A DNA stretch of 33,429 bases from Gammaproteobacteria bacterium. GTDB lineage: Bacteria > Pseudomonadota > Gammaproteobacteria > Pseudomonadales > Azotimanducaceae. A program made the position numbers and the translations under genes. This document shows, in pieces, positions 6,516 to 19,414 of the stretch. Below the pieces are notes generated by a model. The model was not told where the DNA came from, ran no database searches, and saw only the letters and a list, made by a program, of their open reading frames with translations. Within the stretch, counting starts at the first letter, position 1. Each line of letters begins with the position of its first letter. The stretch lies in the NCBI GenBank assembly GCA_026706385.1, contig JAPOYV010000128.1, forward strand, positions 1 through 33,429, in the 5' to 3' direction.

Positions 6516-8738
6516 ATGTCCTGGCGCGCGAAAAGGCCCGTGCTGTGCATTGTCGCGGCTTGCTCGGTCGCCGCTGCAGCGCAACAGGACGACGCTTGGC
6601 GGCGCAACGTCGCGGACACGATCTCGGCGACCTGCGCCATACGGGGGCTCGATCTCAAGGCACCGCTGAAGGTGCTGCCGATGGACGAATTCCAGGGCGG
6701 CTACACGCCCGGGATCGGCAGCGTCACCTGGGAGGCTGATCACGCCCGGATCTGGCGGGAAGGCTGGTGTGCCCTAGGCGTCTACTGCGCACAGGCCCGC
6801 GCGTCTGACGGTGCGGGACGCGGCGAGCCCGGTTTCGCCCGCCCAGCCGGCCTGTACGACCCGGACAAGAACGTGCTGTTCGTGCGCGACGTCACCGACT
6901 CAAGCGCTGTGGCGACGATCGCTCACGAAGCCGTCCACGCCTTGCAGCATCAACACTTCCCCGCCCTGCGCGCCATCCACCTGTGGCGCAACCGGGACCT
7001 CGCCGCAGCCGCCAACTCCGTCATCGAAGGCGACGCCCACGTGGTCGGATGGTCGTTCGATCCGGCGCGCCGGACGATGCTGTGCAGCATGGACCCCGAA
7101 CGGGCTAGTTCCGGCCATGCAAGCTGGTGGCAGTGGGAGCCGGACGGACTCTCCGCACTGGAGGCCTTTCCGCACGTCTTCGGCACCGAACCGGCCTTGC
7201 GCGAAGTCCTCGCCCGCGGCCACACCGCCATGGACCGCGTGCTCCGCGAGCCGCCCTTGTCGACGCTCGCCGTGCTGAGGCCGTCTCTCGCCGGAACGGC
7301 CATCGATTTCATCCGGCTGCCCGAGCAACTCCGGTTCGACCACTGCACGCCGGGCTTGAGAAACACAGCGGGCGTCGTCGGCATCTGGGGGCTGCTGCGC
7401 CAGCACGGGGATGCCGAGGCGAAGGGCGAGTCGCTGCCGGCGTTGCTCGAAGCCTGGCGCGGCGATAGGTTCGCCCACCTGTCCTGCCCGGGCGATCACG
7501 ACGACGAACTGGCCTGGCTGACGCGCTGGCAAACGCCCGACGCAGCCGCACAATTCGCCGCCCGATACGTCGCCATAGCCGATGCCCTGCCGTCCTATGG
7601 CGGCCTCCTCGGCAGCGTGCCCGCGCCGGTCGTCACCGGGCGCACCGTGGTTATCGCGACGGCGGGTCTCCGCGACGCCGTCGGCCAACTCCAGGCAGAG
7701 GTCAAGGCCTTTACCCGATTCGGAGACTGGGTGGCGGCTGACTGCTTCCCCGACCACACATGCGAGGACGCTGCTGGCGATGAAGACCAAGCCGGCAACG
7801 ACTTTTATTGCACGCCACCCCGCAATCCGCCCGACCAACTCGACGCGTGGCTGGAGCGGATCCGGCGCGCCCGGTCGGCGACGATGGAACCGGAAACCGC
7901 GCTACCGGACCTGTTGGCCGATGTCGCGGAACTCGCCGCCTTCTGCGCGCGGAACAGCGCCGAGAACACCGACTTCCTCACCGCTTGCCGCGCCGTCTAC
8001 ACGGGCGCGCGCTACGTTGCCCAGTTGCGCCGGGATCCCAACTACAGGCTCCTGCCGTTCTGCCTGACCGAACCGGAAGTGCGGGACTGGGTACGAGCGA
8101 CCTACTACGCGGATGAGACGCGCCCGCTTTCGGCGGAAGCGAGCTTCACGGGCATCTACGGAATCGCCCGTGCAAGCGCCGCATTCGCCGCGACGGGATT
8201 CGCCGGTTTGCACGATCTGACCGCAGCCCCGCCCCTCGCCACTCGCGCCCTGTTACGGCCCGGGCGGGACGACGTCACGTTGATCGGCCTGCCGCGCGAC
8301 GCCGTTCACGACCACGGTTGCGAGATCTCCGCCAGTCACGCACAGGGCGCCTTGGCGATCCGGCGCCTCGTTCTGGACGACGGGCCGGAAGCAGCGGACG
8401 AGACGCTTCCTGCATTTCTCGCAGACTGGCAGGGTGACCGGCTCTTCCAGGTTCGCTGCATCGACGGCGGAGGTGCCTGGATCTGGATCAGCCTGTGGCG
8501 AACGGACGATGCCGCGCACCGTTTCGCCCACCGTTACCGCGCCCTCGGCCCGGCCACCTTGGCGGAAACCGAGCTACCGGACGTGTCGCCGGTGGTCGAA
8601 CAACGAACCGTATGGATCATCCCGTCCACGCTCATGCATCTTCGGCCCGTGCTCGAGCGAAGCATCGAGGTGCGAGAATTCGACGGCTTTGCCGAATGGG
8701 TCGCGAGCGGCTGCTTCCCGCAAGAGGCCTGTCACTGA
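6516..8738 (+). CDS. Secreted HExxH metallopeptidase-like protein with duplicated C-terminal module
   Basis: I do not recognise a named family for the whole 740-residue protein. An N-terminal signal peptide (RPVLCIVAACSVAAAA, residues 7-22) suggests export. A zinc-peptidase-like motif HEAVHALQHQHF lies at 137-148. VIEGDAH at 169-175 may supply a third Glu ligand, as in gluzincin-like proteins with a HELVHALQDQHF pattern. Residues ~250-416 and ~571-740 are an internal duplication: LPALLEAWRGDRFAHLSC matches LPAFLADWQGDRLFQVRC, and FGDWVAADCFPDHTC matches FAEWVASGCFPQEAC. The cysteines are conserved between copies, which fits disulphides in the periplasm. The second copy has no HExxH. It starts 25 bases after the monooxygenase gene and ends 9 bases before the convergent phosphodiesterase gene. 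Confidence 0.75.
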   Translation: MSWRAKRPVLCIVAACSVAAAAQQDDAWRRNVADTISATCAIRGLDLKAPLKVLPMDEFQGGYTPGIGSVTWEADHARIWREGWCALGVYCAQARASDGAGRGEPGFARPAGLYDPDKNVLFVRDVTDSSAVATIAHEAVHALQHQHFPALRAIHLWRNRDLAAAANSVIEGDAHVVGWSFDPARRTMLCSMDPERASSGHASWWQWEPDGLSALEAFPHVFGTEPALREVLARGHTAMDRVLREPPLSTLAVLRPSLAGTAIDFIRLPEQLRFDHCTPGLRNTAGVVGIWGLLRQHGDAEAKGESLPALLEAWRGDRFAHLSCPGDHDDELAWLTRWQTPDAAAQFAARYVAIADALPSYGGLLGSVPAPVVTGRTVVIATAGLRDAVGQLQAEVKAFTRFGDWVAADCFPDHTCEDAAGDEDQAGNDFYCTPPRNPPDQLDAWLERIRRARSATMEPETALPDLLADVAELAAFCARNSAENTDFLTACRAVYTGARYVAQLRRDPNYRLLPFCLTEPEVRDWVRATYYADETRPLSAEASFTGIYGIARASAAFAATGFAGLHDLTAAPPLATRALLRPGRDDVTLIGLPRDAVHDHGCEISASHAQGALAIRRLVLDDGPEAADETLPAFLADWQGDRLFQVRCIDGGGAWIWISLWRTDDAAHRFAHRYRALGPATLAETELPDVSPVVEQRTVWIIPSTLMHLRPVLERSIEVREFDGFAEWVASGCFPQEACH

Positions 8739-8747
8739 TCGGCAAGA

Positions 8748-9644
8748 TCATCGGGCGCAGCCCGGCATCGACTCGAGCGCCGCGAGCACCTGGTCCGGGT
8801 GGTCGGTGAAGACCCCGTCGACCCCCTGCGCGGCGAGGCCGATCACTTCGTCGGCGAACCGGCCGCGACGTTCGTCATCGGCACGCAGCGTGAACACGTG
8901 GACCAACAGGCCACGCTCGTGGGCGCGCGCCACGAGCGTCGCGTCGTCGGTCAACGCAAAGCTGGACACGCCGATTCCCGCGGCGTAGGTAGCGATCTGG
9001 TCCAGACCGCCGTCCTCGGTCTGCGTCGCGTTGCGGACGAGCTGCACGCGCGGATGGTCGGTGGCGAGCTTCGCAAGCACATGCGCGTCGAAGGACTGCA
9101 GGCGAACCGGCACGTCGTAACGGCTCAGCACGGCCACCACCACGTCCGCGAGGTCGGGCTGCAGCTCCGGGTGCTTCAACTCCGGATACACGCCCACGTT
9201 GCGCCCAGTGGTCCGATTCAGGCCGTGCACAAGCTGCAACACGTCCTCCAGCCGGGGCACGTGGAACGTCGCGTGCGGGTAGCGGTTCGGTCGGGGTTCG
9301 ACCACGCGCAGACGCGCGATCTCCACGTAGGCGAAGTCTCGGGCGTAGTACCGACCATCGTCGCGCCGACGATCCGGATAAACCGTCGCCACGTCCGTAG
9401 TCCGTTCCAGCGTGCTGTCGTGGAGGGCGATCGGCACGTCGTCGGCGGTCAGCACCAGGTCCGGCTCGATCCAGTGTGCCCCTAGACCGTAGCCCAAGGC
9501 GTACGCGGGGAGCGTATGCTCCGGGAGGTAGCCGGATGCGCCGCGATGAGCTATGACCTCCATGCAGGCCGCGTCCGCCGCCAAGGCGCTCGCCAGAACG
9601 GCAATGCCGACGAGAACGCGAAACGGATGGCGATCGACGTACAT
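8748..9644 (-). CDS. glpQ: Glycerophosphodiester phosphodiesterase, periplasmic
   Basis: It hydrolyses deacylated phospholipids to glycerol-3-phosphate and an alcohol. The GDPD fold signature is clear: VIAHRGASGYLPEHTLPAY after the signal peptide, EPDLVLTADDVPIALHDSTL containing metal and catalytic residues, YPELKHP, and the C-terminal GVDGVFTDHPD. ATG 9644 gives a 298-residue protein with a signal peptide (VLVGIAVLASALAADA), so periplasmic. The frame extends ~99 codons upstream, but that part overlaps the divergent speD gene and is not GDPD-like. The distance to the speD start is only 55 bases. The length and secreted nature fit GlpQ rather than the cytoplasmic UgpQ; the gene symbol is by family. 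Confidence 0.88.
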   Translation of the reverse strand: MYVDRHPFRVLVGIAVLASALAADAACMEVIAHRGASGYLPEHTLPAYALGYGLGAHWIEPDLVLTADDVPIALHDSTLERTTDVATVYPDRRRDDGRYYARDFAYVEIARLRVVEPRPNRYPHATFHVPRLEDVLQLVHGLNRTTGRNVGVYPELKHPELQPDLADVVVAVLSRYDVPVRLQSFDAHVLAKLATDHPRVQLVRNATQTEDGGLDQIATYAAGIGVSSFALTDDATLVARAHERGLLVHVFTLRADDERRGRFADEVIGLAAQGVDGVFTDHPDQVLAALESMPGCAR

Positions 9645-9699
9645 GGGAACGGCCCATTGGAGTGCCGTTTCACGGCGCAAGCTGCTAGCATGCCATAAT

Positions 9700-10083
9700 A
9701 TGTCACGAGACCCGTCGACAGGCCCGGTCGCTGCTGGTCGCCACGTCATCATCGAGTGCTTCGGTGGCCAGGCGAGTTTCGACACGGCCACCATGGAGAC
9801 GTTGCTGCGCCAAGCCGCACAAGCCGGGGGCGCTTGCGTGCTGTCCTGCCACATGCACCGCTTCGGTGCCGACGGCGGCGTGACCGGCGTCGCCTTGCTG
9901 GCCGAATCCCACATTACGGTGCACACTTGGCCGGAACGCAACTATGCGGCCTTCGACGTGTTCATGTGCGGCGACTGCGATGCCGACCAAGCGGCCGAGG
10001 CCATCGCCGGGGCGGTGCCCAGCGCCAAGGTCGCTGTCCGCGGCGTCGACCGGCCGACTTCGGCGGATTGGAGAGACGACTGA
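9700..10083 (+). CDS. speD: S-adenosylmethionine decarboxylase proenzyme, prokaryotic class 1B
   Basis: This pyruvoyl enzyme makes decarboxylated AdoMet, the aminopropyl donor for spermidine. The 127-residue protein matches the short Bacillus-type form. The self-cleavage site is Glu69-Ser70 in LAESHITVHTWPE. Ser70 becomes the pyruvoyl group, and His75 and Cys90 (DVFMCG) are the other processing and catalytic residues. ATG 9700 is the only start that fits the family; the 49 codons upstream are unrelated. There is no clear Shine-Dalgarno sequence (upstream is CATGCCATAAT), so translation may be weak or leaderless. The stop overlaps the start of the next gene (TGATG). The partner aminopropyltransferase lies two genes downstream, supporting a dedicated polyamine unit. 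Confidence 0.93.
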   Translation: MSRDPSTGPVAAGRHVIIECFGGQASFDTATMETLLRQAAQAGGACVLSCHMHRFGADGGVTGVALLAESHITVHTWPERNYAAFDVFMCGDCDADQAAEAIAGAVPSAKVAVRGVDRPTSADWRDD

Positions 10084-11057
10084 TGCACGGACCCTTTGCC
10101 AGACCCACCGCGCTCGTTGGAATCGCGTTGCTCGCTCTCGGCCTCGGCGCGTGCAGCGGCGAGAGCCTGCGCAGTCGAATCGACGCGGCAATCGTCCGCC
10201 TCGATGCAGCCGTCGCACGACTGGGCGACGACCTCGACGCGGGCCGACTGCGCAATGCCGAACTCATGCGCCAGTACGCCGACCGCGTCCGCGATACCCG
10301 GCCCGACCTGCGCGACCTGGTGGACGTCCTGGCGCGCGAAGGAACGCGCGACGGCACGATCTACCGTTCGCTCGAGACGCGCCTCGACGACGTACGCAAG
10401 GCGCTTCCCGACACTGGCGCCCGCGACCAAGCCTACGCCGGCGCCGTCGACGAACTGAATAGTCTCGCCCGCGCGGTCGTTCCCTCGGAATTCGACCGTG
10501 CCTTGGCCGATCCCTTGAACGTCCTCGCCGACCTGTCGGACGGTGCCCTGCCGCGTGTGGATGCCATCTCCGCCGCCGCGTCGCAGCGCGCCAACGGCGC
10601 CACCGACCTCGGCGTCGGCAGCCAACTGGTGGGCAATCCAAACTATGGGCAGTGGCGCACGGACTCGAGCGGCACATCGTTCTGGGTCTGGTACGGCCAG
10701 TTCGCGCTGATGCGGGACCTGATCGGCGGACCACGCATCGGCTACGGTGCCTGGGCTGGTGGACGGGACTACAGCTACTACCACGACTATGGCCGGGGCA
10801 ACTACACCTCGCCGTCGGCCCGACAACGGCAGGGCCAAGTGGAGAACACGGCGCGGCGCAAGTTCACGTCGGAGGGTCGTACGTTCCGCAGTCCGTACGC
10901 ACGTCAACGGCAAGGCGCGTCGAGCAACGTCGCGCGCGCCAAGTTCGCCTCCGCGGGCAGTCGCTCCGCGGCCGGGGTCTCACGGACACGCACTGGCACA
11001 GCGTCCGTACGCGGTTTCGGTGGCGGCGGTTACCGCGGTCCATCGAGAGGCAAATAA
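10083..11057 (+). CDS. Lipoprotein of the polyamine/DUF350 cluster, unknown function
   Basis: I do not recognise the family. The start ATG overlaps the speD stop by one base, so it is co-translated. Residues 1-24 form a lipoprotein signal (LLALGLGAC) with Cys24 as the lipidation site. Residues ~28-165 are helical with many charged residues and could form coiled coils. WVWYGQFALM (201-210) begins an aromatic patch, followed by the Tyr-rich GRDYSYYHDYGRGNY. Two tandem ~23-residue repeats follow at 243-265 and 270-292, each with ARQRQG and ARxKF(T/A)S. The tail is basic and Gly-rich (RGFGGGGYRG). In E. coli the yjf cluster includes a lipoprotein (YjfM, DUF1190) with a Gly/Arg/Ser-rich end, so this may be a positional analogue. 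That is inference. Confidence 0.8.
   Translation: MHGPFARPTALVGIALLALGLGACSGESLRSRIDAAIVRLDAAVARLGDDLDAGRLRNAELMRQYADRVRDTRPDLRDLVDVLAREGTRDGTIYRSLETRLDDVRKALPDTGARDQAYAGAVDELNSLARAVVPSEFDRALADPLNVLADLSDGALPRVDAISAAASQRANGATDLGVGSQLVGNPNYGQWRTDSSGTSFWVWYGQFALMRDLIGGPRIGYGAWAGGRDYSYYHDYGRGNYTSPSARQRQGQVENTARRKFTSEGRTFRSPYARQRQGASSNVARAKFASAGSRSAAGVSRTRTGTASVRGFGGGGYRGPSRGK
10809..10958 (+). repeat. Tandem coding repeat in lipoprotein C-terminus
   Basis: Two copies of a ~69-base coding repeat (10809-10877 and 10890-10958) encode SPSARQRQG...ARRKFTSEG and SPYARQRQG...ARAKFASAG. Roughly two thirds of the positions are identical at protein level. The repeats are basic and could bind an anionic surface such as peptidoglycan or lipid head groups, which is speculation. 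Confidence 0.7.
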
Positions 11058-11088
11058 CGCTTCGGCGGGCTCGTAAGAAGGAGACAGC

Positions 11089-11985
11089 ATGTTCGACTCG
11101 TTAAGTTTCTGGATCTGGGGCATCGTCGCGCTTGACCTCGCGGTCGCCGTCGCCGCCATCTGCGCCCTGCGCTACGCATCCGGTGTGCTGTTCAGCGTCG
11201 ATTCGCGCGATGAGCTGGCGGAGAAGGACAACCTCGCATTCGGCCTGGCGTTGGCCGGGGGCGCGGTGGCCGTGGCCCTAGTGCTCGCGGCCGCTGGTGC
11301 CGGCGACCCCGCGCTGACCTTCGCGACCGAGTTGGGAGTCGTGGTCGCCTACGCGGTCACCGGGCTCGTCCTGTTGAAGCTCGGCATGCTCATCAACGAC
11401 TGGATCATGTTCCACAAGTTCTCCGTCAAGACCGCGATCAAGGCGCAGAACACGGCGGCCGGCACCGTCCAGGCCGCCAACCTGGTCGCGCTCGGGGTAT
11501 TGATCAACGGCGCGGTCAACTGGGCGAGCGGCGACCTCGTACAAGGCTTGCTGTCGGTGGTCGTGATGTTCCTTCTCGTGCAACTCGTTCTGCTCGCGGT
11601 AACGCGCACACGGGCCACGATCTATGCCCGTCGGCATGACGGCGAGCGCTGGCAGCACGCTATCGAGGGCGGCAATACCGCCCTAGCCGTGCGCTACGCC
11701 GGCCACCTGATCGGCACCGCGTTGGCGTCGTCCGCTGCCGGAGGCATGGTGTCGTTCGTACCGGGTGCCGACACCGTCGCGCTGATCGCGTACGTCTCGT
11801 GGTTCGTCTGGGCGGTGGTCCTGGCGGCAGCTCTGCTCTTACTGTCCACCCTCGCCCAGCGGGTCATCTTGAGCGGCGTCGACGTCGTCGAGGAAGTGGA
11901 CAACCAGGGCAACGTCGGCGTGGCGGCCATCGAGGCGGCGGTGTTCTTCGGGCTAGGCCTGGTGATCCGCGCCGTCGCTGGCTAG
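11089..11985 (+). CDS. DUF350 integral membrane protein (YjfL-like, duplicated)
   Basis: The 298-residue protein has about eight hydrophobic segments arranged as two DUF350 units. The first contains ELAEKDNLAFGLALAGG, the second VEEVDNQGNVGVAAIEAAVF; these conserved polar-then-Gly/Ala stretches mark the family. E. coli YjfL is a single-unit member, so this is the longer tandem form. It is an inner membrane protein of unknown biochemical activity. A strong AAGGAG lies before ATG 11089. It sits between the lipoprotein and the membrane spermidine synthase, 31 and 42 bases from its neighbours, in the same operon. Confidence 0.88.
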   Translation: MFDSLSFWIWGIVALDLAVAVAAICALRYASGVLFSVDSRDELAEKDNLAFGLALAGGAVAVALVLAAAGAGDPALTFATELGVVVAYAVTGLVLLKLGMLINDWIMFHKFSVKTAIKAQNTAAGTVQAANLVALGVLINGAVNWASGDLVQGLLSVVVMFLLVQLVLLAVTRTRATIYARRHDGERWQHAIEGGNTALAVRYAGHLIGTALASSAAGGMVSFVPGADTVALIAYVSWFVWAVVLAAALLLLSTLAQRVILSGVDVVEEVDNQGNVGVAAIEAAVFFGLGLVIRAVAG

Positions 11986-12027
11986 CGGATCCTCGAGGCG
12001 TAGTACCACGACGGTCCGCTTGGTGAC

Positions 12028-13737
12028 GTGAAGGCCAGCAGCCGCTTGCGGTTGCACGACACGGCGCTCATCGGCGCAATGGGCCTGGTGGCCGCGTGCG
12101 GCCTGGTCTACGAATACCTGATGGCGCACTTCGCCGGGCGCATCCTGGGGGCCGTCGAACCAACCCTGTACACCATGATCGGCCTGATGATCGTGGCCAT
12201 GGGGCTCGGCGCGTTCGCGGCGAAGTGGATTGCCTCGATCTACCGGGGCTTCGCCTGGCTTGAACTCAGCATCGCCGTGCTGGGCGGCACTTCGGTGCTG
12301 GCGCTTTCGGCCGCCGTGGCCCTCGCCTATGCGCTACCTGAGTGGCTGCGCACCGTCTACGGCCTCGACGTCACCATCGCACTCGACGGCGGCGTTCCCT
12401 CGAGCATGGTCGCGGTCGCTCGCATCCTGCCATTCGTTGCCGGCTTCCTAATCGGGTTTTTGATCGGCATGGAGATCCCGCTCATCGCAAGGGTCCGCGA
12501 GCACGTGCACGCACGCCACCTGGAGCACAACCTGGGCACGATGTACGGCGCCGACTACATCGGCGCCGGGGTCGGTGCCGCCATCTGGGTGCTCGTGTGC
12601 CTGAAAATGCCCATCGTCTTCGCCGCCGTCGGGGCCGCAGCTCTGAACACCGCCGTCGGCGCGGCCTTCCTGGTGATCTACCGCGCGCGGCTCCGGCCGG
12701 CCCACTGGCTCTGGATCGGCCATGGTCTGTTGGCCGTCCTGCTGGTCGTGCTGGCGGGCTTCGGCACGCAGTGGATGGCCCAGTTGGGTGACACCCTGTT
12801 CAAGGACCGGGTCGCCTACCGGCTGCAGACGCCGTATCAGAACGTCGTCGTCACGAGACGCCACGTCGCCGTCGGCAAACCCGACGTGGTCAGCCTCTAC
12901 ATCAACGGGCGGCTGCAGTTCGCATCCAACGACGAGCGCATCTATCACGCCTACCTCACCACCCCGGCGATGCTTGCCGCCTACCGACGGGACCGCGTAC
13001 TCGTGCTCGGCGGCGGCGACGGCCTCGCCCTGCGCGACGTGCTGCGTTGGAATCCCCAAACGGTCACGCTGATCGACATCGACACGGGCCTCCTGCGCCT
13101 CTTCCGCGGCGACGATCCCGATGCCCCCGATTGGCTGACCGAGACGCTGACGGAGCTCAATGAGCACGCCTTCGACGACCCGCGGGTGGACGTCATCGAG
13201 GGGGATGCCTTCATCGAGGTGGAACAACTGGCTGCCGCGGGCCGTCGCTACGACGTCGTGGTCGCCGACCTCCCCGACCCCAGCCACCCGGACCTGAACC
13301 GGCTCTACAGCGACTACTTCTATGGGCGGATTCGCCACTTGCTGTCGCCCGACGGGACCTTCGTCACCCAATCCACCTCCCCCTTTCACGCCACCGCCGC
13401 GTTCCTGTCGATCGGCAAGACGATCGCCAGCGTGGGATTCCGAGTCGAGCAATACCATGCCAACGTGCCCAGCTTCGGCCAGTGGGGTTGGAGCATCGCC
13501 ACGGTCCAAGGCCTTGGCGCCTCCGCGCGCATCGCCGCCTCGGACACGCCGACGTTCCCGGACGGCTGGCTGGACCAAGCCCAGACTATCGCCGCATTCG
13601 CCCTGCCGGACGCGGTGACGGGGCGCGACGAATCGATCGCCATCAACCGACTAGGCAGCCATGTGGTCTTCAGCTACCACCAGCGTGCCTGGCGTGAACA
13701 CAAGGGGACGTTCTTCGCGGGTGAGGCCATACCCTGA
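12028..13737 (+). CDS. speE: Membrane-anchored spermidine synthase (polyamine aminopropyltransferase)
   Basis: The 569-residue protein joins an N-terminal membrane domain of about seven helices (residues ~12-250) to a C-terminal aminopropyltransferase domain (~255-540), which would transfer an aminopropyl group from decarboxylated AdoMet to a diamine. The domain shows LYINGRLQFASNDERIYHAYL (289-309, cf. D-E-x2-YH), the nucleotide loop GGGDG (328-332), an acidic strand end TLIDID (347-352), and DLPDP (414-418) with the catalytic aspartates. Canonical enzymes usually have GGGEG; the Asp substitution is conservative. The GTG start at 12028 is the only early start giving the first helix. AdoMet decarboxylase upstream supplies the co-substrate. 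The acceptor is unproven; it could be a diamine or another amine near the membrane. Confidence 0.88.
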   Translation: MKASSRLRLHDTALIGAMGLVAACGLVYEYLMAHFAGRILGAVEPTLYTMIGLMIVAMGLGAFAAKWIASIYRGFAWLELSIAVLGGTSVLALSAAVALAYALPEWLRTVYGLDVTIALDGGVPSSMVAVARILPFVAGFLIGFLIGMEIPLIARVREHVHARHLEHNLGTMYGADYIGAGVGAAIWVLVCLKMPIVFAAVGAAALNTAVGAAFLVIYRARLRPAHWLWIGHGLLAVLLVVLAGFGTQWMAQLGDTLFKDRVAYRLQTPYQNVVVTRRHVAVGKPDVVSLYINGRLQFASNDERIYHAYLTTPAMLAAYRRDRVLVLGGGDGLALRDVLRWNPQTVTLIDIDTGLLRLFRGDDPDAPDWLTETLTELNEHAFDDPRVDVIEGDAFIEVEQLAAAGRRYDVVVADLPDPSHPDLNRLYSDYFYGRIRHLLSPDGTFVTQSTSPFHATAAFLSIGKTIASVGFRVEQYHANVPSFGQWGWSIATVQGLGASARIAASDTPTFPDGWLDQAQTIAAFALPDAVTGRDESIAINRLGSHVVFSYHQRAWREHKGTFFAGEAIP

Positions 13738-13774
13738 CTGCCGTTCGCCCGTCGCCAACGGGTGAAAATAACGG

Positions 13775-13804
13775 TTGACCTTAGGACATATTATGTCCTA
13801 AGGT
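13775..13804 (+). promoter_or_regulatory. Candidate regulated promoter with 27-bp palindrome between -35 and -10
   Basis: A perfect inverted repeat with 13-base arms (ACCTTAGGACATA, one central T, and its complement) spans 13778-13804. TTGACC at 13775-13780 is a near-consensus -35. TAAGGT at 13799-13804 could be the -10, separated by 18 bases. A dyad centred in a long spacer, bounded by TTGACC and TAAGGT, is the layout of MerR-family promoters such as mer and copA. The AT-rich dyad stands out in the GC-rich surroundings. It lies 82 bases before the DUF2170 start and would control the PspA-containing operon. No MerR gene is in the window; the ribbon-helix-helix-like protein at 15678 is an alternative ligand. 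Confidence 0.65.
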
Positions 13805-13885
13805 TGGTTTCGAACGCGGCCTCGAGTCAACCCGCCGCACCGATATGCCACATTGGATGACACCAGACGAAGAGAGGAAGCTTGC

Positions 13886-14287
13886 ATGACCCTGGACGAC
13901 CTGGCCTTTCGCCTGAACGAGTACTCCGGCGACGAAGGCACCACTTTCGACGCGTTCGTCACCGAGCGCGGCATCCTCGAAGTCGTGTGCTCGAACGACG
14001 ACGAGTTCCCGATCCACGTCACCATGACGGAAACCCAGTTGCTGTCCGTGACGCCGCTTTTCTCGACTTCCGAAGTCCTGCCCGACAAGCTCCACGAGCT
14101 CAACGATGCCTTCCTGCGCCTGAGCCCCGCCGTACCCCTGTCCTCCATTGGGCTGCAAGGGGATACCTACATCCTGTTCGGGGCGATGGCGCTCTCGACG
14201 CGCCTTGAGGTCATCGCGCACGAGCTCGAAGTGCAGGCGGAGAACACAATCGACGTGCTCGAGGCCGTCGAGCACTTGCTGGCTTGA
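13886..14287 (+). CDS. DUF2170 family protein (YjfI-like)
   Basis: The 133-residue acidic cytoplasmic protein belongs to the DUF2170 family found with PspA-like genes. E. coli YjfI is of similar length. No enzyme motif is visible. Recognisable stretches are LNEYSGDEGTTFDAF near the start and LSSIGLQGDTYILFGAM in the C-terminal half. I chose ATG 13886 because GAGAGGAAG lies just upstream; an ATG 11 codons earlier lacks this. It is the first gene after the palindromic promoter and is followed 45 bases later by the PspA-family gene, so it is probably the first gene of a separate transcript. Its molecular function is unknown. Confidence 0.82.
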   Translation: MTLDDLAFRLNEYSGDEGTTFDAFVTERGILEVVCSNDDEFPIHVTMTETQLLSVTPLFSTSEVLPDKLHELNDAFLRLSPAVPLSSIGLQGDTYILFGAMALSTRLEVIAHELEVQAENTIDVLEAVEHLLA

Positions 14288-14332
14288 CGCAGAAGGCCGG
14301 CGAACTAGCTTACGAACGTAAAGGAGATCACC

Positions 14333-15028
14333 ATGGGTGTACTTAGAGACATGTTCACCGCGCTCAAGGGCGGTGCCAACGAGGTCGGCGAAGCCATCGT
14401 CGACGCCAATGCGATCCGCATCCTGGAACAGGAAATCCGCGATGCCGAGACCGCGATCGCAAGCGCCAAGCAGAGCCTGACGCGCATGAAGAGTTCCGAG
14501 ATCAAGCTCAAGCGCGAGGTCGCCACCATCGACGCCGACGTCGCCGACTACGAGCAGAAGGCCGTCAAAGCCCTCAACGCCGGCGAAGAGGCGCTGGCCA
14601 CGGAGGTCGCGGAGCGAATCGCGGAGCTCGAGTCCGAGCGGGGCGAAAAGGCAAGCGAACAAGCCACGCTCGATACGGAGGTCCAGAAGATCCACGCCAT
14701 GATCAAGGCGCGCGAACGCACCATTGCGAAGAACAAGCGCGAGTTGGACAAGGTCCGCACCGTGCAGGAGTTGCAACGGGCAACCGAGAGCGTCTCGAAG
14801 AACTTCGCGGCGACCGGGTCGAGTGGCCACCGCGTGTCCAAGGCTCTCGAACGCGTCAAGGCCAAGCAGCAAGGCTGGCAGGACCGCATGGAAGCCGGCG
14901 AATGGCTCGAGCACCAGGAGGCCGGCGACGATCTCGATGCCAAGTTGCGCGCCAAGGGGCTCGGCGACTCGGCCAACACCGGTGCGAGCGATGTCTTGGC
15001 CCGGCTCAAGGCTCGCCAAGCCGGTTGA
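14333..15028 (+). CDS. PspA/IM30 family protein (YjfJ-like)
   Basis: The 231-residue protein is predicted almost entirely helical, with long coiled coils (about residues 25-175), as in PspA, IM30/Vipp1 and the ESCRT-III superfamily. These bind stressed membranes as oligomeric rings or rods. The opening MGVLRDMFTALKGGANEVGE is a short amphipathic N-terminal region. A perfect AAAGGAGATC precedes ATG 14333. The partners (DUF2170 before, DUF2491 after) match the E. coli yjfIJK order, so it is YjfJ-like rather than the PspF-controlled PspA. No pspB, pspC or pspF gene is nearby. Confidence 0.9.
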   Translation: MGVLRDMFTALKGGANEVGEAIVDANAIRILEQEIRDAETAIASAKQSLTRMKSSEIKLKREVATIDADVADYEQKAVKALNAGEEALATEVAERIAELESERGEKASEQATLDTEVQKIHAMIKARERTIAKNKRELDKVRTVQELQRATESVSKNFAATGSSGHRVSKALERVKAKQQGWQDRMEAGEWLEHQEAGDDLDAKLRAKGLGDSANTGASDVLARLKARQAG

Positions 15029-15033
15029 CGCCG

Positions 15034-15681
15034 ATGCTCAAGAAACTGTTTCGCGCGCGGTTCAGCAAAGGCGATGCCAACGATGCTCGATCGCTCGAGT
15101 CGCCCGCCGATCTGACCGCCGGGGACCTCGTGACCTTCAAGCATCGCCTGGCGCTGCCCGGCGACGTTCAAGGGCAGACCTTCGAAGTCTCATCGGTCGG
15201 CGCCTATGAGTTCGAGGACGGCTTGTACCCGCAGCTCACCTTGGACGGCGCCGAATCGGGGCGCATCTTCCTGTCCTTCAAGGCGGGCGACGTAAGCGAA
15301 CTGTGCCTGTCGCGCGAGGTGCCGCGCCGGGACGTCCTGAAGCTGTTCGACGAAGACGCATTCAGCGCGCTCTGGGACGACGACTTCGCGGATCTCCAGG
15401 TCGTCTCCCGGCTCGACGCCTACGACGGCTGGCTGGCCGACGCCTACTCGCAAGTCAAGAAGTGGGCCGAAGGCTACTACCACAGCCGCGACCAGCGCGG
15501 CGAGACCCTGTCGCAATACGCGGACGACGACAGCGAAGAATTGCGCTACCACGAGTGCGAGGATGCGAGCGGCCGCTTCGGCATCACGGTCGAGGTCTGG
15601 GGCGACGGCGAGACCGAGGTGACCCTCGACGTCAACGTCGCGCCGGACGTCGTCGATGCCCTGTTTCCGGGAACGTCATGA
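15034..15681 (+). CDS. DUF2491 family protein (YjfK-like)
   Basis: The 215-residue acidic protein resembles YjfK: LTAGDLVTFKHRLALPGD at the start, YEFEDGLYPQLTLDG, and the C-terminal EVWGDGETEVTLDVNV. It has no signal peptide or membrane segment. ATG 15034 begins 5 bases after the PspA-family stop. The frame is open further upstream but only inside the PspA gene. Its stop overlaps the next start (ATGA), indicating a tightly coupled operon. The function is unknown; constant association with PspA-like and DUF2170 proteins suggests a physical partner at the membrane. Confidence 0.85.
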   Translation: MLKKLFRARFSKGDANDARSLESPADLTAGDLVTFKHRLALPGDVQGQTFEVSSVGAYEFEDGLYPQLTLDGAESGRIFLSFKAGDVSELCLSREVPRRDVLKLFDEDAFSALWDDDFADLQVVSRLDAYDGWLADAYSQVKKWAEGYYHSRDQRGETLSQYADDDSEELRYHECEDASGRFGITVEVWGDGETEVTLDVNVAPDVVDALFPGTS

Positions 15682-16055
15682 GTTCAGGCAGCGCGCCCGC
15701 CAGTCGCGCCCGTCGCCCGCGTCGGTCGAAAGGATCGACGCGGTTCCAGGCGGAGCGCCGGGCGCTGGGCAAGATCCAGGTCCACTTCGAGTTCCAGCAG
15801 GCGCTGATGCACAAGATCCGCATCGCCGCTGCAGCCGAGAACTTGAGCTACGCCGACTACGTGCGCAAGCTCGTTGGCCTTCCCTACGCGAAGATCCAGC
15901 GGCCTCGCATCAGCCTGTCCTTCGGCGCCGAAGACCTCGACCGGCTGGCTGGCCGGTACGGTCGGCCGGGGGCCGACCCGCAAGCCCTGAAGCGTTGTGT
16001 GATGGACGAGATCAGCAGTCAGCTCGATGCCGCAGATTCGCCGGATGACCCATGA
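15678..16055 (+). CDS. Small basic protein with ribbon-helix-helix-like core
   Basis: This 125-residue protein has a disordered, Arg/Ser-rich N-terminus (residues 1-25). A segment resembling a ribbon-helix-helix fold follows: a strand IQVHFEFQ then helices ALMHKIRIAAAAENL and YADYVRKLVGLP (~33-70). The rest is a less clear alpha/beta tail. RHH proteins are usually dimeric DNA binders and often autoregulators. I did not recognise a named family. It starts with ATGA overlap on the DUF2491 gene and ends with ATGA overlap on the channel gene, so it is made together with both. It could regulate the cluster or be a structural adaptor. Confidence 0.7.
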   Translation: MSSGSAPASRARRPRRSKGSTRFQAERRALGKIQVHFEFQQALMHKIRIAAAAENLSYADYVRKLVGLPYAKIQRPRISLSFGAEDLDRLAGRYGRPGADPQALKRCVMDEISSQLDAADSPDDP

Positions 16056-17167
16056 TCCCGCTGTGGTTCCGGCGGCGGCGGTACCTGCGCTTCACCCGGC
16101 ACGTCGCCGGCGCTATTCGCCGCCGCCTGATCCGCGTCGTTGCGGTTTTCGCCGCGCTATTCGGCATCCACGTGGCCGCCATGATGGTTGCCGAGGGCTA
16201 CGACCTCGGCGATGCGCTGTGGCTGACGATCACCACGGCGACCACCGTCGGCTACGGCGACATCTCGGCGAGTACGCCCCTAGGGCGCTGGGCGACCGTG
16301 ACATGCATGTACGTGTTCGGCATCTTCCTGCTCGCCCAGGCGGCGTCTGACGCCTTCGACTATCGCGCCTTGCTCCGGGAGCGGCGCCGACGCGGCGAAT
16401 TCCAGTGGAGAAACATGAACGACCACCTGCTCATCGTGAACGTGCCGGCCCAGGACGCCGACGCCTACCTCGTGCGTCTCGTCGACCACGTGCGGCGCAC
16501 CCCAGCGCTTGACGACATCCCGATACAGATCCTCACCCCCACGTACCCGGACGGGCTCCCGTCCGAATTGGTCGACGCCGGCGTCACCCACTACTCGGGA
16601 GTCGCCGAAAACACGCCCAATCTGGAGGCCGCCAACGTCGCCACGGCCCGCTGCATCGTGATCATCGCCGACGAACCCAACGACATTCGTTCGGATGCGC
16701 ATACCTACGACATCCTCACCCGCATGGCACAGATCCGCCGCGCAAGCGGTGCGCCGCCCGCGGTGGTCGTGGCCGAGGTGGTGGAAGACGCGGACCGAGC
16801 GAGAATACTCGGTGCCGGCGCCACCACCGTCGTGCGCCCGATTCGGGCCTACCCCGAACTCGTGGTGCGCGCCCTATCGGCACCGGGCGTCGAACAGGTG
16901 CTGGAGAACCTCTTCACCCACGATGCCGACAGGTTGGCGCGCTTCGACGCGGACTTCGAGAATCTCCGTTGGTCCGACGTGGTGGTCAGTTTCGTCAGGG
17001 GCGGTGCCGGCGTGCCCATGGGTTACATTGGGCCCGAGGGCGTCAACACCAATCCGCATCCGGGCGACCTGTGCAGCGGCCATGCCGTGATCTCCCTACT
17101 CGACGAACGCCTCGATGTCACGCACGACATGGTCGCGCGGTGCCTGAAGACGGCAGCGGAGTTCTAA
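16052..17167 (+). CDS. Two-TM potassium channel with divergent RCK domain
   Basis: The 371-residue protein has a basic N-terminus, TM1 (~28-46), a pore loop with the selectivity filter TTVGYGD (64-70), and TM2 (~80-98). A cytoplasmic regulatory region runs from ~125. The first RCK strand reads HLLIVNVPAQDADAYL, without the usual Gly-x-Gly-x2-Gly nucleotide loop, so NAD(H) binding may be altered. A later segment, GVPMGYIGPEGVNTNPHPGD, resembles the C-terminal lobe of some RCK channels. The start overlaps the preceding gene by four bases (ATGA). It is the last gene of the cluster and implies control of K+ flux across the inner membrane. Confidence 0.88.
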   Translation: MIPLWFRRRRYLRFTRHVAGAIRRRLIRVVAVFAALFGIHVAAMMVAEGYDLGDALWLTITTATTVGYGDISASTPLGRWATVTCMYVFGIFLLAQAASDAFDYRALLRERRRRGEFQWRNMNDHLLIVNVPAQDADAYLVRLVDHVRRTPALDDIPIQILTPTYPDGLPSELVDAGVTHYSGVAENTPNLEAANVATARCIVIIADEPNDIRSDAHTYDILTRMAQIRRASGAPPAVVVAEVVEDADRARILGAGATTVVRPIRAYPELVVRALSAPGVEQVLENLFTHDADRLARFDADFENLRWSDVVVSFVRGGAGVPMGYIGPEGVNTNPHPGDLCSGHAVISLLDERLDVTHDMVARCLKTAAEF

Positions 17168-17246
17168 CCTTAGTACCACTCGGACTCTCCGAACGGTCGG
17201 GATTTCCTTACAATCCAAAAGGTTGTTCGTTCGTCAACCGCCCGCC

Positions 17247-18929
17247 ATGTACCAGTACAGCGCGTTCGACCAGCGTTTCGTCGAGGAGCGGGTCGAGCAA
17301 TATCGGGACCAGACTCGGCGCTATCTCGCCGGCGAACTGACGGACGACCAGTTCCTTCAGTTGCGCCTGCGCAACGGCCTCTACATCCAGCGACTGGCGC
17401 CCATGCTGCGCATCGCCGTGCCCTACGGGCTGCTGACGGCGGCCCAGTTGCGGGCCTTGGCCGAGATCACGCGCACCTACGATAAGGGATACGCCCATCT
17501 GTCGACCCGGCAGAACGTCCAGATCAACTGGCCCGAGCTTCGGGTCGTCCCCGACATCCTGGCCGATCTCGCCGCCGTGCAGATGCACTGCATCCAGACC
17601 AGCGGCAGTTGCATCCGCAACATCACCACGGACCAGTTCGCCGGCGTGGCCGCCGACGAAATCGTCGATCCGCGACCCTATTGCGAGCTCATGCGGCAGT
17701 GGTCCACCTATCACCCCGAGTTCGACTGGCTGCCGCGCAAGTTCAAGATCGCCGTCAACGCGGCGCAGGCGGATCGTGCCGCGATCCACGTCCACGACAT
17801 CGGCATCAACATCCGCGCCGGCGACGACGGCAGACCGCGATTCGACTTCCTGGTCGGCGGAGGCTTGGGCCGCACGCCGGTCATCGGCAGCCTGATCCGC
17901 GAGGGTTTGCCCGAACAACACCTGCTGACCTACCTCGAAGCGATCTTGCGGGTCTACAACCGTTATGGCCGTCGCGACAACAAGTACAAGGCGCGGATCA
18001 AGATCCTCGTGCGCGCGATGACGCCGGAGAAGTTCCGGGCACAGGTGGATGCGGAATGGGAGCACCTGCGCGGCGGTCCGAGCACGGTTCCCGAAGAGGA
18101 AATCGAGCGCATCAAGGCCTGCTTCGTCCCCCACCCGTACGAAGACCTCGCCGACGAGACTCACCTCCTCGCCCGTCAGCGCCTGGCCGACCCAGCCTTC
18201 AACGCGTGGATGCGGAACAACGTCGCACCGCACAATCGCCCCGGCTACGCGATCGTGACGTTGTCGACCAAGGCCACGGGCGTTCCACCGGGCGACGTCA
18301 CCGAAGAACAGATGGATGCTGTCGCCGACTTCGCCGAGCGTTTCGGATTCGGGGAAATTCGCATCTCGCACGAGCAGAATTTCATTCTCCCGGACGTCCC
18401 GCAGAAGCACCTCTTGGCGGTCTACGAACTCGCGTGCGACCAGGCGCTCGGACAAGCCAACGCCGGGCTCCTAACCGACATGATCTGCTGCCCCGGCGGC
18501 GACTTCTGCTCGCTGGCGAACGCCAAGTCCATTCCCATCGCCGAGGCCATTCAACGGCGCTTCGACGACTACGACTACCTGCACGATCTCGGCCCGCTCG
18601 ACGTCAACATCTCGGGTTGCATGAACGCCTGCGGCCATCACCACGTCGGTCACATCGGCATTCTCGGCGTGGACAAGCGCGGCGATGAGTTCTACCAGAT
18701 CTCGATCGGCGGCAACCAGGCGGAGGACGCGTCCCTTGGTCGCATTCTCGGCCCGTCGTTCAAGCGCGCCGACGTGCCGGACGTCATCGACCGGATCTTG
18801 GCGGTCTACGTGGACAACCGGTTGGACGGCGAGCCGTTCCTGCACACTGTGCGCCGCATCGGCATCGAGCCGTTCAAGACGCACGTCTACGGGGTTGCAC
18901 AGCCGCCCGCATTGCGACGCGCCGGGTAG
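17247..18929 (+). CDS. cysI: Siroheme sulfite/nitrite reductase
   Basis: This hemoprotein carries out the six-electron reduction of sulfite to sulfide, or nitrite to ammonia, using siroheme and a 4Fe-4S cluster. The cluster ligands are present as C-x5-C (Cys415, Cys421 in CCPGGDFC) and C-x3-C (Cys458, Cys462 in GCMNACGHHHVG). The length is 560 residues from ATG 17247; a TTG eight codons earlier is less likely. The following DUF934 gene is the usual partner of the pseudomonad-type CysI, so assimilatory sulfite reduction is favoured over nitrite reduction. A TACAAT at 17209-17214 may be its -10. The 79-base gap separates it from the channel gene. No cysJ-like flavoprotein is in the window. Confidence 0.88.
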   Translation: MYQYSAFDQRFVEERVEQYRDQTRRYLAGELTDDQFLQLRLRNGLYIQRLAPMLRIAVPYGLLTAAQLRALAEITRTYDKGYAHLSTRQNVQINWPELRVVPDILADLAAVQMHCIQTSGSCIRNITTDQFAGVAADEIVDPRPYCELMRQWSTYHPEFDWLPRKFKIAVNAAQADRAAIHVHDIGINIRAGDDGRPRFDFLVGGGLGRTPVIGSLIREGLPEQHLLTYLEAILRVYNRYGRRDNKYKARIKILVRAMTPEKFRAQVDAEWEHLRGGPSTVPEEEIERIKACFVPHPYEDLADETHLLARQRLADPAFNAWMRNNVAPHNRPGYAIVTLSTKATGVPPGDVTEEQMDAVADFAERFGFGEIRISHEQNFILPDVPQKHLLAVYELACDQALGQANAGLLTDMICCPGGDFCSLANAKSIPIAEAIQRRFDDYDYLHDLGPLDVNISGCMNACGHHHVGHIGILGVDKRGDEFYQISIGGNQAEDASLGRILGPSFKRADVPDVIDRILAVYVDNRLDGEPFLHTVRRIGIEPFKTHVYGVAQPPALRRAG

Positions 18930-18934
18930 GCTCC

Positions 18935-19414
18935 GTGCCGCCAGTTCCCTGTCTGGTCCGGGACGGTCGGATCGTGGACGACGAGTGGACGCTCGTGGAA
19001 GAAGGCGATGCCGCGCCGGGCCTCATCGCGTCGCTGGACGCGTGGCGGCAAAACCCGGAAGGCGCGGGCGTCTGGGTCGAGGGCGACACGGCGGCGGAGG
19101 AGATCGGCCCCTTGGTGGCAGCCGCGCCGGTGGTCGCCGTGCGCTTCCCAGCCATCGTCGACGGTCGCGGTTTGAGCCTCGGGGCCTTGTTGCGCTCCCG
19201 CTACGGGTTCGAAGGCGAACTTCGCGCCTTCGGGGACATCATCCCGGACATCACCGAATACATGCACCGCTGCGGATTCAATGCCTTCGTGCTGCCCGAC
19301 CGGGAACAAGCCGAAGTCGCCATTGCCTGCATGGGACGCATGAGCGACCATTACCAAGCGTCGGTGCGGCAACCCAAGCCGCCGTTTCAAGAACCGACTA
19401 CGCGACGACCGTAA
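18935..19414 (+). CDS. DUF934 family protein, CysI-associated
   Basis: The 159-residue protein matches DUF934, found almost always behind cysI and near cysH in proteobacteria and thought to aid sulfate assimilation. Typical stretches are LRSRYGFEGELRAFGDI and MHRCGFNAFVLPDR. The GTG start at 18935 is 5 bases after the cysI stop, with GGGTAGG overlapping the end of cysI as a possible ribosome site. The exact role is unproven. No cysH follows; the next gene is an antiporter. Confidence 0.85.
   Translation: MPPVPCLVRDGRIVDDEWTLVEEGDAAPGLIASLDAWRQNPEGAGVWVEGDTAAEEIGPLVAAAPVVAVRFPAIVDGRGLSLGALLRSRYGFEGELRAFGDIIPDITEYMHRCGFNAFVLPDREQAEVAIACMGRMSDHYQASVRQPKPPFQEPTTRRP

Follow-up and report, generated by a model that had tools for sequence, protein, structure and literature searches.

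Gene clusters that combine an S-adenosylmethionine (AdoMet) decarboxylase, SpeD, with a DUF350 protein and a spermidine synthase (SpdSyn) fused to a membrane domain of the MFS type were reportedly described by Li et al. 2019, who are said to have proposed aminopropylation of a substrate other than putrescine and are not known to have named one. In E. coli, YjfC and YgiC are annotated as peptide-spermidine ligases. The cluster described here lies in the window, a stretch of 33,429 nucleotides that is contig 14 of the 5.1 Mb draft genome of a gammaproteobacterium of the Azotimanducaceae. Nine genes on the forward strand at positions 9700-17167 form one unit in the order speD, lipoprotein, DUF350, SpdSyn membrane fusion, DUF2170, PspA/IM30, gene 7, RHH-like protein and K+ channel. 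SpeD, the fused SpdSyn and DUF350 are reportedly shared with the clusters of Li et al. 2019, and the lysine-ended tail of the lipoprotein supplies a candidate substrate. The chances are about even that the C-terminal lysine of a membrane-anchored tail protein is aminopropylated by the fused enzyme, with SpeD supplying decarboxylated AdoMet.

The cluster is of a published neighbourhood type with no assigned function, the second group of Ravi et al. 2024, a CesT/Tir-PspA operon with a 7TM-spermine synthase (PMC11237479). In the text of that paper this group has in common with the window DUF2170 (CesT/Tir) beside PspA, the 7TM-SpdSyn, the DUF350 form with eight transmembrane (TM) helices and DUF4178, and it includes a lipoprotein and in some cases an RHH regulator, of which the window has possible counterparts; the window cluster adds SpeD at the head and the K+ channel at the end. 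The lipoprotein of the group is of the Ctha_1186 type; the window has a lipoprotein, and no model so named is present in the searched libraries. A potassium channel is mentioned a single time in the passages on these operons, for the ATP-grasp group. The window resembles the third group (E. coli yjf type) in the K+ channel, with the RCK-type ligand-sensing domain recognized in relatives only (9 of 16). The word lysine occurs 0 times in the main text, and no operator or substrate was seen in the passages on these operons. Among the matches listed for open-licence PubMed Central there was none on a lysine-tail substrate or on peptide aminopropylation. New here are the lysine tail, the predicted outward orientation of the synthase domain, the operator palindrome, the varied channel types at the last gene and the accessory nature of the part with PspA, RHH and the channel.

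The lipoprotein (10083..11057) carries a lipobox with Cys24 and a Gly/Ser/Arg-rich tail ending -Arg-Gly-Lys, and matches no Pfam family over the cut-off. In the close relatives the tail is Ser/Arg/Gly-rich and variable in length and sequence; of 82 distinct complete lipoproteins, 81 end in Lys, with Gly before it in 79. None of the eight other cluster proteins has a comparably conserved last residue. The terminal Gly-Lys is encoded at 11049..11054 in the window. Among 86 records, duplicates included, the Gly codon is GGC in 33, GGT in 19, GGA in 18 and GGG in 13, the Lys codon is AAA in 52 and AAG in 33, and the distance from the lipoprotein end to the next gene also varies. This variation indicates that the constraint on the terminal Gly-Lys acts at the level of the protein; a nucleic-acid cause, the Shine-Dalgarno sequence of the next gene, is ruled out by the varying codons and spacing. 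Counted by locus, a Lys end is found in 30 of the 32 loci of the window's own family (the other two are at contig edges). Among the close named loci it is found in 55 of 61, the exceptions being L067, L093 and L127 at contig edges, L070, which has an in-frame stop past which the same frame ends -GGGK, and L092 and L123. Several named loci duplicate contigs that also appear without a name (for example L067/L035, L093/L061, L120/L049 and L125/L048), so these per-locus counts are not all independent.

The lipoprotein follows the fusion enzyme from genome to genome. A survey of 150 genomes of the family contains 36 with the close fusion enzyme and two (G025 and G118) with a divergent one. The lipoprotein profile matches in 36 of these 38, strongly in 34 and as a short, weak, partial match in G025 and G118, and in none of the 112 others; the two that it misses, G123 and G139, are incomplete genomes in which a contig breaks off in the gene or close to it. 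The association is more than chance: the lipoprotein profile is confined to fusion-enzyme genomes, and many relatives keep the gene order. Beside the divergent enzyme of G025 (locus L065), SpeD and a channel with TrkA_N there is a lysine-tailed protein of 559 aa (10533-12212), whose likeness to the lipoprotein profile is confined to a short segment (positions 183-244). In three loci of the same family from other genera (L063, L064 and L066), SpeD neighbours a different type of SpdSyn-like membrane fusion, and a tail filter finds no lysine-tail protein there, unlike in L065; L063-L066 are all kept outside the lysine-tail counts.

Lysine tails are also found in distant clusters, where the fusion enzyme is 29-36% identical and the Lys end belongs to a different protein encoded close to DUF350 or speD. 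Such a protein is present in 18 of 19 distant named loci. It is a one-TM peptide of 59-75 aa in nine Flavobacterium loci, a peptide of 49 aa in a metagenome-assembled genome (MAG) of the Helicobacteraceae and of 62 aa in one of the Planctomycetota, a DUF4178 protein in Lachnospiraceae (L139 by Pfam, L143 by likeness) and a DUF4247 protein in Nocardia and Actinomadura; the bodies in the remaining distant loci have no Pfam match. An even sample was drawn by searching 398 Pseudomonadota genomes, from which 44 fusion loci over the cut-off, besides that of the window, were retrieved. Judged by eye for a Lys end, a G/S/R-rich tail and a TM helix or lipobox, 40 of the 44 hold a membrane-anchored tail protein. 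These are lipoproteins, one-TM peptides of 49-100 aa, two other bodies (L183, L195) and a class of larger proteins whose short tail is preceded by a TM helix (492-640 aa when complete; L162 matches DUF4178 and the others resemble it). The tail bodies that occupy the same place elsewhere are apparently unrelated to the lipoprotein. An automatic rule, requiring a [GH]K end and a tail with at least 60% G/S/R/Y/F/N/H/T/W, selects 35 of the 44 fusion loci and 3 of 20 control loci with soluble SpeE; with any Lys end the counts are 40 of 44 and 6 of 20.

A lysine at the end of an envelope protein has a familiar use, since it is the C-terminal lysine of Braun's lipoprotein that links this protein to peptidoglycan. 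The tail could likewise be a recognition or anchoring signal, with the enzyme aminopropylating a lipid head group or a small molecule instead. Tail proteins of only 49 aa suit a signal, and a lipid acceptor is conceivable for a membrane-embedded enzyme. This explanation is weakened by the distribution of L,D-transpeptidases: YkuD (PF03734) is present in 23 of 34 fusion-enzyme genomes and was not found in the other 11, which include the window's own genome and five single-contig relatives. The lysine tails, moreover, follow the fusion enzyme and not soluble SpeE, and we regard the anchoring explanation as rather unlikely.

The enzyme proposed to modify the lysine (12028..13737; NF002956, 2e-168) consists of a 7-TM domain fused to a spermidine-synthase-like aminopropyltransferase domain. 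It resembles spermidine and thermospermine synthases (PDB 1uir, 6bq2, 7xif and 3o4f) in fold and donor site, and differs from them in its fusion to seven TM helices and in its acceptor-side residues. In an alignment of 153 fusion sequences with 21 soluble SpdSyn (from the 20 control loci and E. coli), the donor and catalytic positions Q33, Y63, H64, GGGDG, D110, D140, D158 and D161 (E. coli numbering) are kept; the catalytic and donor residues are retained in 150-153 of the 153 fusions and GGGDG in 147-153. Other positions are replaced uniformly: T55 by Phe (149/153), E57 by Ser (138), T160 by Pro (153), Y226 by Phe (149), M231 by Trp (150) and T232 by Gly (152). In spermidine-synthase structures these positions lie on the acceptor side. 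By this alignment the donor site is intact and the acceptor side is remodelled. An aminopropyltransferase requires an amine acceptor, and the side chain of lysine is a butylamine like putrescine, so that aminopropylation would yield a spermidine-like C-terminal side chain.

The first-pass annotation held that polyamine production is encoded directly, and suggested that polyamine is used or sensed at the membrane together with PspA and the channel. In this form the product would be free spermidine or a related triamine, made from imported or unrecognised putrescine, and the polyamine level would control PspA and the channel. The NCBIfam name of the fusion, polyamine aminopropyltransferase, agrees with this, as do the intact decarboxylated-AdoMet site and the adjacent SpeD. 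The decarboxylases found point the other way. The single gene of the Orn/Arg decarboxylase fold in the genome is lysA (TIGR01048, 467.7 bits). One gene of this fold was found in 15 of 16 genomes of the genus; those of the 14 other genomes are 59-90% identical to the window's lysA, and these 14 contain no second one. OKR_DC_1 has no match in any of the 16. In searches that covered the two main families, the genus thus shows no putrescine decarboxylase. This and the altered acceptor side speak against a free spermidine product, and direct polyamine production is not borne out. Fusions of this kind also reportedly fail to complement a speE deletion, with spermidine absent (Li et al. 2019). A free polyamine as product thus appears doubtful and this explanation improbable. 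A second PF01564 match in the genome (C85) is a fused MFS-SpdSyn of a different type.

SpeD itself (9700..10083; class 1b-like; PF02675, 2.7e-28; TIGR03330, 7.9e-31, over the cut-off) is the single match to its profile in the whole genome. SpeD proteins that turned into ornithine or arginine decarboxylases have been described (Li 2023, PMC10407285). Such a role is unlikely for the SpeD of the window, because the genome has one SpeD and the fusion retains its donor site.

The location of the synthase domain can be predicted from the membrane part of the enzyme. The AlphaFold model (pLDDT 84, pTM 0.64) has seven long helices and a short one (149-161) before the synthase domain, which in a structure search matches known aminopropyltransferases; hydropathy also gives seven long TM helices. 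The mean number of K+R per sequence in the 153 fusions is 1.75, 1.93, 2.77 and 3.00 in the four loops of the N-terminal side and 0.69 and 0.71 in two of the opposite loops. With seven helices and the N-terminus inside, the synthase domain would face the outside of the cytoplasm, the same side as the tail. The same lysine modification might instead take place in the cytoplasm before export of the tail, as YjfC/YgiC-type ATP-dependent peptide-spermidine ligases would need to do. Decarboxylated AdoMet is made in the cytoplasm, and the DUF1190 neighbours of YjfC and YgiC also have N-terminal membrane anchors (by eye). The seven TM helices and the charge bias, however, place the domain outside, and most lysine-tail proteins are lipoproteins or have one TM helix, with tails expected outside; we consider modification before export very unlikely.

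The next component, DUF350 (11089..11985; 9.2e-38), is the 8-TM double form, and its predicted structure (pLDDT 89) shows eight long helices. The fold has no PDB match (Foldseek, E <= 0.001), so transport of decarboxylated AdoMet by DUF350 remains a guess. In the proposed mechanism, SpeD would produce decarboxylated AdoMet, which would cross the membrane, with the 7-TM domain and DUF350 as possible routes. The enzyme domain and the tail would both lie on the outer side of the inner membrane, and there the 7-TM-fused aminopropyltransferase would transfer the aminopropyl group to the side-chain amine of the tail's C-terminal lysine, and not to putrescine. In the window's lineage this core would work together with the PspA-DUF2170 membrane-repair pair and the K+ channel. 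A broader version is a tentative possibility: that membrane-embedded aminopropyltransferases across phyla carry out extracytoplasmic N-epsilon-aminopropylation of the C-terminal lysine of dedicated tail proteins, with the donor possibly passing through DUF350, and that, where the full cluster is present, the partner K+ channel, which differs in type between loci, is gated or plugged by the spermidine-like tail.

A number of observations weigh against lysine aminopropylation at the outer face, and the tail modification is a prediction from sequence. No lysine-tail protein was seen in L092 and L123 among the close loci, in L128 alone among the 19 distant ones, or in four of the 44 sampled loci (L163, L173, L193 and L196). 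The Gly is not absolute: L118 ends -PK, L069 -SK and five sampled tails -[IV]K. Ends of the form [GH]R pass the same filter in 17 of 44 fusion and 9 of 20 control loci, and are a common background. The predicted side of the tail is less certain in L174 and L183, with two and three predicted TM helices, and in several one-TM tail peptides, which have no charge excess on the N-terminal side. The sidedness predicted for the enzyme depends on the parity of its seven TM helices and would be inverted by a single re-entrant helix; in the charge count, no residues fell to the loop between helices 5 and 6. An outside enzyme needs decarboxylated AdoMet outside, which has no known route. SpeD has no match in 7 of the 36 family genomes with the close fusion, two of them incomplete, and some SpeD matches are weak or below the cut-off. 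At least 8 of the 44 sampled fusion genomes also encode a soluble SpdSyn (three candidates per genome were scored), so that free spermidine there has its own enzyme.

The nine genes are divided by their widest intergenic gap, 148 nt between the fusion enzyme and DUF2170. This gap contains a perfect palindrome with 13-nt arms (13778..13804), which holds GACATATTATGTC and is proposed to be the operator of the second sub-operon. An operator-like copy, GCCATAATATGTC (9692..9704, forward strand), has one mismatch to the core GACATAWTATGTC and overlaps the start codon of SpeD. Allowing at most one mismatch, the 5.1 Mb genome contains GACATAWTATGTC twice, at the starts of the two sub-operons, and the reversed control not at all. 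A set of 112 related loci (1.87 Mb) contains 172 exact GACATANTATGTC sites; 129 of these are near the start of DUF2170 and 35 near that of the lipoprotein, 164 in all. Over the same loci, the counts for four control palindromes are 0, 0, 0 and 1.

The site is linked to the gene of the RHH-like protein (15678..16055). Of 160 loci in total, it is found in 83 of 85 with the RHH gene (not in L070 and L072) and in 4 of 75 without, and in these four (L033, L035, L059 and L067) the stretch stops short of the RHH position. It is found in none of nine loci with DUF2170 and PspA and without the RHH gene. The RHH protein, a proposed repressor of the two operators, is therefore the likely binder of the palindrome sites and would control the two sub-operons at its two GACATAWTATGTC-type sites; by the distribution of the sites, both halves are one regulon of two sub-operons. 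The earlier description of a small RHH-like protein gains from this linkage, and its family match is weak (RHH_10, E 0.0056, below the cut-off). The view that the nine co-directional genes form a single system is upheld by the shared operator at both sub-operon starts, the conserved order and the matched presence and absence. Other junctions are close: SpeD and the lipoprotein overlap by 1 nt, gene 7 and RHH by 4 nt, and RHH and the channel by 4 nt. No known RNA element reaches the gathering score at 9000-17500.

The order lipoprotein-DUF350-fusion-DUF2170-PspA-gene 7-RHH-channel recurs in relatives. In some species extra genes are inserted at the 148-nt junction; in L036 and L037 an ABC-transporter-like gene (by eye) stands between the fusion enzyme and DUF2170. 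The order is different in L076, L099 and L115. Only the first half is present in the stretch read in L031 (G078), L032 (G037) and the named loci L073, L077, L082, L085, L090, L091 and L116. L031 and L032 come from single-contig species of the same genus, and their first half is speD-lipoprotein-DUF350-fusion. SpeD is part of the stretch in 14 of the 32 loci of the own family and in 8 of the 61 close named ones, and lies elsewhere in some genomes. Of the 44 loci of the even sample, 39 contain DUF350, 18 contain PspA and 7 have a channel on the same strand. The core across phyla is therefore the tail protein, DUF350 and the fused enzyme, usually with SpeD; the part with PspA, RHH and the channel is accessory, present in a subset of loci that includes the window's lineage. 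The membrane system with PspA and a channel that had been read from the window accordingly applies to this subset and not generally.

The accessory part comprises DUF2170 (13886..14287; YjfI/BacA, CesT/Tir-like; 2.7e-22), PspA/IM30 (14333..15028; 2.1e-35), gene 7, the RHH-like protein and the two-TM K+ channel (16052..17167; TVGYGD; 8.9e-12) with a divergent RCK-type C-terminal domain. The TrkA_N match to this domain is found in the 9 of 16 aligned channel members mentioned above and not in the window's own copy. A K+ channel stands behind the RHH gene in 57 of 77 assessable close loci and is lacking in 20; the 77 are what remains of the 93 close loci once 13 that lack RHH or gene 7 and 3 that stop at a contig end are set aside. 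In 52 of the 57 the channel is within 100 nt of the RHH gene (stop-to-stop frames). By length, 37 exceed 330 aa (two-TM with the RCK-type domain), 14 have 230-330 aa and are six-TM channels of Shewanella and Parashewanella, and 6 are short, including a possibly truncated six-TM gene in L098 (Shewanella). The Pfam check covered two six-TM, three short and 16 two-TM/RCK-type channels. The occurrence of different channel types at the same place suggests that channel activity itself is used.

The assignments of the first-pass annotation to AdoMet decarboxylase, membrane-fused spermidine synthase, lipoprotein, DUF350, DUF2170, PspA/IM30 and two-TM K+ channel all stand, and that of gene 7 (15034..15681) to DUF2491 is replaced. 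None of 31 family members of gene 7 matches DUF2491 and 14 match DUF4178 (E <= 1, best 2.4e-8), the window's own copy matches neither, and a profile comparison with E. coli YjfK reached probability 37 over 59 columns only. Gene 7 is thus a DUF4178-type protein, assigned by its relatives. The proposed match to E. coli yjfIJKL holds for DUF2170, PspA and the DUF350 family, whereas DUF2491, the short YjfL, DUF1190 (0 in the window's genome) and the ligase are missing. The absence of an ATP-grasp ligase extends from the window to the whole draft genome, in which GSP_synth (PF03738) has 0 matches; the E. coli and Caulobacter controls were positive.

A better parallel than this gene match is provided by E. 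coli yjfMC and ygiBC, in which a tail protein is likewise paired with a polyamine-type enzyme. In yjfIJKL-yjfMC and ygiBC this enzyme is an ATP-grasp ligase acting on a carboxylate, and neither stretch has a SpdSyn fusion. The DUF1190 neighbours of YjfC and YgiC and two further DUF1190 proteins end Gly-Gly in all four complete cases (L225 has no complete frame), an end that suits the ligase because the ligase uses a carboxylate. By analogy, the two systems look like different chemistries for the same purpose, the placing of a polyamine-like group on an envelope tail. The proposed tail modification would be a counterpart of hypusine and of peptide-spermidine ligation.

Of the genes around the cluster, an ordinary pair of nitrite/sulfite reductase and DUF934 (17223-19414) directly follows the channel. 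Further downstream are a Na+/H+ exchanger family protein (PF00999; 19507-20667) and NhaB (PF06450; 24226-25728), probably in separate transcription units. Upstream, a 740 aa open reading frame (6516-8738) without a Pfam match at 1e-5 consists of two halves that by eye resemble each other.

If the C-terminal lysine is indeed the acceptor, the cluster would represent a new kind of protein modification and a candidate answer to the question, reportedly left by Li et al. 2019, of what the fusion aminopropylates. The fusion synthase is found in genomes of several phyla and is named polyamine aminopropyltransferase by NCBIfam, so many annotations would be wrong. In the window's lineage, a K+ channel and the PspA membrane-stress machinery would be tied to the modification in one regulon with a defined operator.

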